Shown here: in pieces, positions 33,762 through 34,184 of the stretch
How the letters are laid out: the number at the start of each line of letters is the position of its first letter
Position numbering within the stretch: position 1 is the stretch's first letter
Source: Candidatus Halocynthiibacter alkanivorans
GTDB taxonomy: Bacteria > Pseudomonadota > Alphaproteobacteria > Rhodobacterales > Rhodobacteraceae
Reading direction: 5' to 3'
DNA: 64,000 nucleotides
Assembly (NCBI RefSeq): GCF_003333265.1
Contig: NZ_QOLB01000156.1
Location: 1-64,000, forward strand
Translations under genes and position numbers: made by a program
Notes under the pieces: generated by a model
Databases searched by the model: none
Told to the model about the DNA's origin: nothing
Seen by the model: only the letters and a program-made list of their open reading frames with translations

Positions 33762-34184
33762 GGTTGGGGTCACGCCCCCCGCGCCACAACCGGCGCATTC
33801 AGTCCTCCACCCGACCCACAACAGGCCCACGCCACACCTGCAACAGGCGCTGAGCAACCGGAGTGCGCCAGCGCGAGATCGCAGAACCCTGGCACAGCGG
33901 CCCGTCCCCCCGGGACTTGCCCCGCCAAATGAGAGGTGGTCAATTCACAGGACCCGGATCAACCCATTCGGATCGCCATATTCAGAGCCTGGAGGTCAGA
34001 GGTCAGAGGTCAGAGGTCAGAGGTCAGAGGTCAGAGGTTAGAACTTAGAACTTAGAACTTAGAACTTAGAACTTAGAACTTAGAACTTAGAACTTAGAAC
34101 TTAGAACTTAGAACTTAGAACTTAGAACTTAGAACTTAGAACTTAGAACTTAGAAGCCAGAGCACAGCAAGCAGGGCCCATCTG
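33762..34184. other. Convergent intergenic region with heptamer array
   Basis: No gene. The centre is the heptanucleotide array at 33994-34154. The flanks are ordinary GC-rich sequence without a hairpin terminator that I can see. Confidence 0.6.
33994..34154. repeat. 23-unit heptanucleotide tandem array with a type switch
   Basis: Six exact GGTCAGA units (33994-34035) are followed by one hybrid GGTTAGA (34036-34042) and sixteen exact ACTTAGA units (34043-34154). No base departs from this pattern. The unit is not a multiple of three, so an array inside a gene would shift frame, but here it lies between two 3' ends. Confidence 0.97.

Follow-up and report, generated by a model that had tools for sequence, protein, structure and literature searches.

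The array described here lies in a convergent gap between two genes, within a stretch of 64,000 bases that was analysed as a whole and is referred to below as the window. To its left, a GNAT acetyltransferase gene ends at 33761; to its right, a short gene on the opposite strand has its stop codon at 34185, with 30 bases between the array's right end and that codon. The product of the short gene is called lipoprotein-like on the basis of its N terminus. Further out, cobN lies upstream, and a GFA-family gene and a cobO-type gene lie downstream. The array is thus located between two stop codons in non-coding DNA, and the sequence-only reading, which put it where a GNAT gene and a lipoprotein gene face each other with their 3' ends, holds on this point, the former identified by its PF00583 match and the latter by its N terminus. 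The features of the locus are as follows.

33102..33761, + strand: GNAT acetyltransferase gene, 3' end towards the array (PF00583, E 9e-9)
33762..34184, no strand: convergent intergenic gap containing the array, 423 bp (from ORF limits)
33980..33993, + strand: candidate degenerate units to the left, ATTCAGA and GCCTGGA, in register (weak similarity, judged by hand)
33994..34035, + strand: block 1, six perfect GGTCAGA units (read from the sequence; Tandem Repeats Finder row 33992-34042)
34036..34042, + strand: border unit GGTTAGA (read from the sequence; no hybrid in reading phases 2 and 3)
34043..34154, + strand: block 2, sixteen perfect ACTTAGA units, 28.6% G+C
34155..34161, + strand: possible degenerate right-flank unit AGCCAGA (5/7 to GGTCAGA, 4/7 to ACTTAGA, by hand)
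34185..34511, - strand: lipoprotein-like gene, 108 aa (no Pfam match; N terminus ..LLSACTS..)

Reading the sequence directly, we counted 23 heptamer units over 161 bases (33994-34154), all in a single register with 0 mismatches and 0 indels; the six GGTCAGA, one GGTTAGA and sixteen ACTTAGA units are as first described. The two blocks yielded the two highest Tandem Repeats Finder scores in the window (236 and 95). The same program reported short-period repeats at 28223-28299 (ACG x9.7 and a 15-base period). When runs of at least 3 units and at least 20 bp with periods of 4-15 were sought in a genome sample of 993,526 bases (the 64,000-base window plus 929,526 other bases, with 17,170 positions reading N), 12 were found; five first-order Markov simulations, each matched to that sample in length, produced 0. 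Six of these runs were hexamer, two heptamer and four octamer repeats, and both heptamer runs were the two blocks of the array. Taking at least three head-to-tail 7-base copies beyond chance as the mark of a heptanucleotide tandem repeat, the array is one. No 112-base stretch of the window has a lower G+C than block 2 (0 of 63,889), and 60 of 906,473 such stretches in the genome sample, those with N excluded, are at or below its value. Degenerate heptamers may continue the register on both sides of the array: compared by hand, ATTCAGA (33980-33986) agrees with GGTCAGA at 5 of 7 positions and GCCTGGA (33987-33993) at 3 of 7 only, and AGCCAGA follows on the right. Block 2 carries TAG (+ strand) or TAA (- strand) every 7 bases and therefore, as worked out by hand, stops in all frames. 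A 61-aa ORF running through block 1 (33863-34048) ends in the first ACTTAGA unit, matches no Pfam family and is likely spurious, and a coding repeat was rejected.

The sequence-only reading took the hybrid unit GGTTAGA as a joint between the two unit types, left when one unit mutated and then spread by slippage. Whether a hybrid appears depends on the reading phase. In phases 2 and 3 of the seven, the same 161 bases are composed of six TCAGAGG and sixteen TTAGAAC, or of six CAGAGGT and sixteen TAGAACT, with 0 hybrids; where one unit type gives way abruptly to another in the same register, the other phases show one mixed unit, and the hybrid thus marks the border. Furthermore, GGTCAGA and ACTTAGA differ at 3 positions, such that one point mutation is insufficient, and GGTTAGA could stand for no more than one of these changes (C4T). 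Taken alone, the hybrid is no record of a mutational intermediate but weak and non-independent evidence, and the argument built upon it, that of a mutated unit joining the blocks, does not stand on its own, given its absence from 2 of 7 phases and the three substitutions that separate the words. The broader proposal of mutation followed by spread through slippage keeps other support in the perfect, recent-looking array, the lack of a heptamer array at all 13 comparable relatives' junctions and block switches in 5/25 arrays elsewhere. The right-flank AGCCAGA, being nearer to GGTCAGA, would weakly fit a block 2 that arose within an older GGTCAGA-like array.

A switch of unit does not seem unusual in heptamer arrays. 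We compiled 25 distinct arrays from other genomes and viral contigs, merging manually the duplicates that stood under several locus ids; these arrays were found via patterns related to the window's own units and are therefore not a random sample. More than one unit type in register was present in 19 of the 25, many of them by virtue of degenerate end units only, since end units were added while 5/7 positions matched the neighbour. Five of the 25 switched between blocks of at least 2 copies each. Examples of switching include TGTCAGAx8 followed by TGTCGGAx7, GGCCAGAx3 followed by GGTCAGAx3, and a stepwise series of ACTTAGAx7, ACTTATAx1 and GCTTATAx2.

Pattern searches of the genome with ACTTAGAx3, RRNYRGAx4 and NNTYAGAx4 returned no other match, and the search for further ACTTAGA or GGTCAGA arrays proposed in the sequence-only reading thus ended with this array alone. 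The 232 bases to its left are single copy in the genome, indicating that no repeated intergenic element surrounds it. A plasmid-borne relative of the array region was likewise rejected, as a search of 72,556 plasmid records with positions 33863-34200 found no match; because the low-complexity filter of BLAST may mask the repeat, this search mainly tests the flanks. Other long simple repeats are present in the genome. One locus (L061, G000:C6, 9958-10021) carries an 8-copy octamer array of three TGGAACGC and then five TGGAATGC units, and another (L066, G000:C11, 8902-8999) a GGCTTC hexamer run of 98 bases and 16.3 copies.

Of 149 family genomes searched for the lipoprotein-like gene, 50 contained it, own genome included, and the best 30 of these 50 loci were examined. 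For 14 of the 30 (own included), the convergent neighbour could be identified as a CobN or GNAT gene; the remaining 16, in whose flanks no CobN or GNAT neighbour was found, were left out of the gap count. The 13 comparable junctions thus available among the best 30 of 50 had gaps of -4 to 680 bases, and a heptamer array was present in none of them. The gap in the window measures 423 bases with the array, and one of the 13 relatives' gaps held a 14-base hexamer run. Scanning the 29 other loci of the best 30 of 50 for at least 3 exact units of 5-11 bases revealed no heptamer runs, only three 18-base hexamer runs. Among 29 loci of GNAT relatives, collected separately and mostly from records labelled Rhodobacteraceae or its genera (labels that suggest this family, and with it the class Alphaproteobacteria, for the window too), a lipoprotein match occurred in L036 (Rhodobacteraceae) only, where the GNAT and lipoprotein-like genes stand 3 bases apart; L034 and L035 have overlapping GNAT and cobO genes. 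Within the limits of these samples, the arrayless junctions of relatives make the junction older than the array. The compared samples of 61 relatives and 248 family genomes hold no second genome of the same genus. Small lipoprotein-like genes without a Pfam match lie between or near cobN and cobO in several genomes of the family (L163, L165-L167, L174, L179, L180, L188 and 34185-34511 of the window), convergent to cobN or to the GNAT gene.

Long simple sequence repeats of prokaryotes were reportedly surveyed in 2007 by Mrazek's group. As recounted at second hand in PMC4679880, an earlier survey found heptanucleotides to be the most abundant long-repeat class in most genomes and proposed slippage as their source, and PMC4692102 describes heptamer over-representation in many genomes. 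As these papers portray them, the surveyed heptanucleotide repeats resemble the present array in their perfect 7-base units, intergenic position, uneven occurrence among relatives and proposed origin by slippage; apart from its unit words and locus, the array is not known to differ from them. PMC4679880 further reports TAACTGA direct repeats in Beggiatoaceae, Cyanobacteria and Bacteroidetes, among them two Bacteroidetes in which long intergenic TAACTGA arrays occur beside other heptamer repeats, the intergenic regions of close relatives being shorter and without obvious repeats. On this description, TAACTGA repeats share with ours the heptamer arrays, the patchy distribution and the arrayless relatives, and the case of the two Bacteroidetes is much like the window locus. 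The unit, in contrast, is another one, no array unit being TAACTGA in any rotation or on either strand, and the same paper counts 169 sets of TAACTGA repeats in the Guaymas genome, most of them directly ahead of start codons.

The quadruplex-forming heptamers GGGNATC and GGGGA(C/T)T of Xanthomonas and Nostoc lie in many cases within 50 bases of stop codons, singly or in inverted pairs, according to PMC4692102. They are like the present array in being heptamer arrays near stop codons; unlike them, ours occupies one locus only and has no G-tract of three, its units containing GG at most and ACTTAGA not even that, where the quadruplex type would call for a tract of at least three G in each unit. 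In Geobacter metallireducens, PMC2700814 lists four classes of predicted regulator sites, mostly in pairs, of which class 3 comprises 16 short sequences of mostly five heptamers with the consensus MTYCTGA and with strand switching. In array phase, the reverse complement of this consensus (derived by hand) is AKTCAGR, which is one base from GGTCAGA and fits the AGTCAGA units of G049 and G107, two genomes considered below. By hand comparison, GGTCAGA departs from AKTCAGR at its first base and ACTTAGA at two positions, and unlike the Geobacter sites, the array of the window is long, stands alone without a partner and includes a second unit type. String searches of a literature library found no bacterial report of the array's unit words or of the locus, and the matches to GGTCAGAGGTCAGA included none on bacterial repeats, judged by title and start of abstract.

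We considered whether the array, or its unit number, could be an artefact of assembly. The unit number comes from one draft assembly of 170 contigs, and a perfect block of 112 bases is difficult for short reads; against this, unique flanks are joined through the array within a contig of 114,413 bases (C161), the array consists of two distinct and ordered blocks, and cobN, the lipoprotein-like gene and cobO are found together in relatives too. An artefact is accordingly extremely improbable. The array might otherwise be a functional 3'-end element, namely an AT-rich insulator or supercoil sink of adjustable length (a GapR-type binding region, for example) or an element in the 3' UTR of the lipoprotein mRNA. 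Such a role would suit the convergent junction, the position of block 2 at the G+C minimum of the window and the presence of a GapR gene in the genome. It would also suit the predicted folding of the lipoprotein strand RNA, where block 2 alone gave z -2.46 relative to shuffles (-17.4 kcal/mol) and block 1 with the border unit gave z -11.48, the latter at only -3.2 kcal/mol and with shuffles that hardly fold. However, block 2 extended as far as the lipoprotein stop folded no better than shuffles (z 0.34), nor did three stretches of plus strand RNA (z 5.02, 0.44 and 3.11); the RNA folds are rows of two-pair steps, and as DNA the array has practically no fold. Block 2 might act as a supercoil sink; the lack of conservation, with 0 of 13 comparable relatives' junctions carrying an array, counts against it. 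Nor do the arrays of G049 and G107 show a clear preference for convergent gaps, 6 of the 20 that lie between two ORFs doing so as against a baseline of 24 of 118 gaps, with crude ORF calls. Overall, we regard a functional 3'-end element as very unlikely. Several narrower candidates were also rejected. The interval 33600-35000 showed no promoter-like sites and a single terminator-like site, where chance alone would give 1.6; as this site falls within the GNAT gene and not in the array, an intrinsic terminator in the array was discarded. An RNA element was discarded because no Rfam family matched 33000-36000 at E <= 1, and a phase-variation locus because it would need a repeat that lies in a reading frame, a 5' UTR or a promoter, whereas this one stands between two 3' ends.

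A further alternative makes the GGTCAGA block a member of a recurrent, sequence-specific RRTCRGA family (reverse complement TCYGAYY), dispersed in some bacteria, partly as opposite-strand pairs and perhaps bound by a protein, with block 2 as a decayed local offshoot. The word does recur: RRTCRGAx3 was present in 8/240 class genomes (own included) and its reversed control in 0/240, with 155 matches on both strands of G049 and 69 in G107. Sampling both genomes in 20 stretches (245,280 bases) gave 33 arrays of NNTC(A/G)GA with at least three copies and 0 of the reversed control, and five opposite-strand pairs within 200 bases; yet 14 of the 20 stretches came from contigs with known matches, and the 6 picked blindly contained 0 arrays. 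In viral contigs, GGTCAGAx3 occurred in 42 stretches (35 contigs), its reversal in 7 (6 contigs) and a permuted word in 4. The Geobacter class 3 sites point the same way through AKTCAGR (PMC2700814). Against the family, RRTCRGAx3 was no commoner than its reversal in a phylum sample (2/249 each, own genome being one of the two forward matches), and NNTYAGAx4 barely exceeded its reversal in the phylum (11/398 vs 9/398) and equalled it in the family (1/248 vs 1/248); in these word counts, control genomes were counted manually from result rows and the genome samples overlap. This is the only RRTCRGA array in its own genome, and 17 of its 23 units do not fit the word, 6 doing so. It also has no opposite-strand partner, since neither TCYGAYY within about 400 bases nor a 9-base inverted match within 1 kb was found; the pairing of the Geobacter sites is therefore absent here, and a hairpin with an inverted heptamer partner, as in L013, L051, L052 and L054, was rejected.

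GGTCAGAx3 itself was found in 2/61 relatives and 5/385 class genomes (own included), with 0 control matches, and ACTTAGAx3 in 2/240 class genomes (own and G086; control 0/240) and in 5 viral stretches vs 2 for its reversal; the exact border string of the array occurred in 0 viral stretches. Set against each other, the class counts and those of the phylum and family show that heptamer arrays occur with many words, and they hint that one class favours RRTCRGA words. Six of 9 genomes of one genus (g595; G683, G784, G828, G849, G915 and G937) matched NNTYAGAx4 or its reversed control, which suggests that this genus commonly carries heptamer arrays built from several words. On balance, membership of the array in such a family is unlikely. 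Lower still do we place a fuller version, in which a process recognizing the word (a binding protein, a dedicated polymerase or a recombinase) multiplied and dispersed a widespread RRTCRGA family on both strands, and the window array would be a lone, recently seeded outpost whose word was rewritten to ACTTAGA and then spread.

We therefore favour, with a probability of roughly 0.8, a heptanucleotide tandem repeat particular to this lineage, in other words a bacterial minisatellite or long simple sequence repeat, which would have expanded in situ through slippage or unequal exchange and is probably without function; many bacteria have slippage-prone repeats of this kind, and the array looks like an ordinary one. 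The observations from which this reading starts are the array itself, its two blocks, its absence from 13 comparable relatives' junctions and the unit switching of some other bacterial arrays. A few imperfect heptamers at the convergent junction of two genes would have been the beginning; these would have multiplied via replication slippage or unequal exchange, and a changed unit would then have multiplied in the same register to give block 2. Slippage or unequal exchange as the engine and the order of the two expansions are what we infer from the pattern. Lying outside genes between two 3' ends, the array probably does little or nothing, although the ends of both transcripts may be mildly affected. 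The three substitutions between the units, with at most one intermediate left, speak against the slippage account. In addition, GGTCAGA is commoner than its reversal in viral contigs, a bias not expected if slippage simply multiplied whatever seed was present, and it may thus be a non-random heptamer.

The significance of the locus is small, its array being a candidate typing marker for the species. Of more use than the locus may be the side result that RRTCRGA heptamers recur in genomes of the class and GGTCAGA in viral contigs, with a resemblance to the Geobacter sites, while the phylum sample gives no excess. Should an excess prove true, some heptamers would be favoured by a mechanism, and not by slippage alone.
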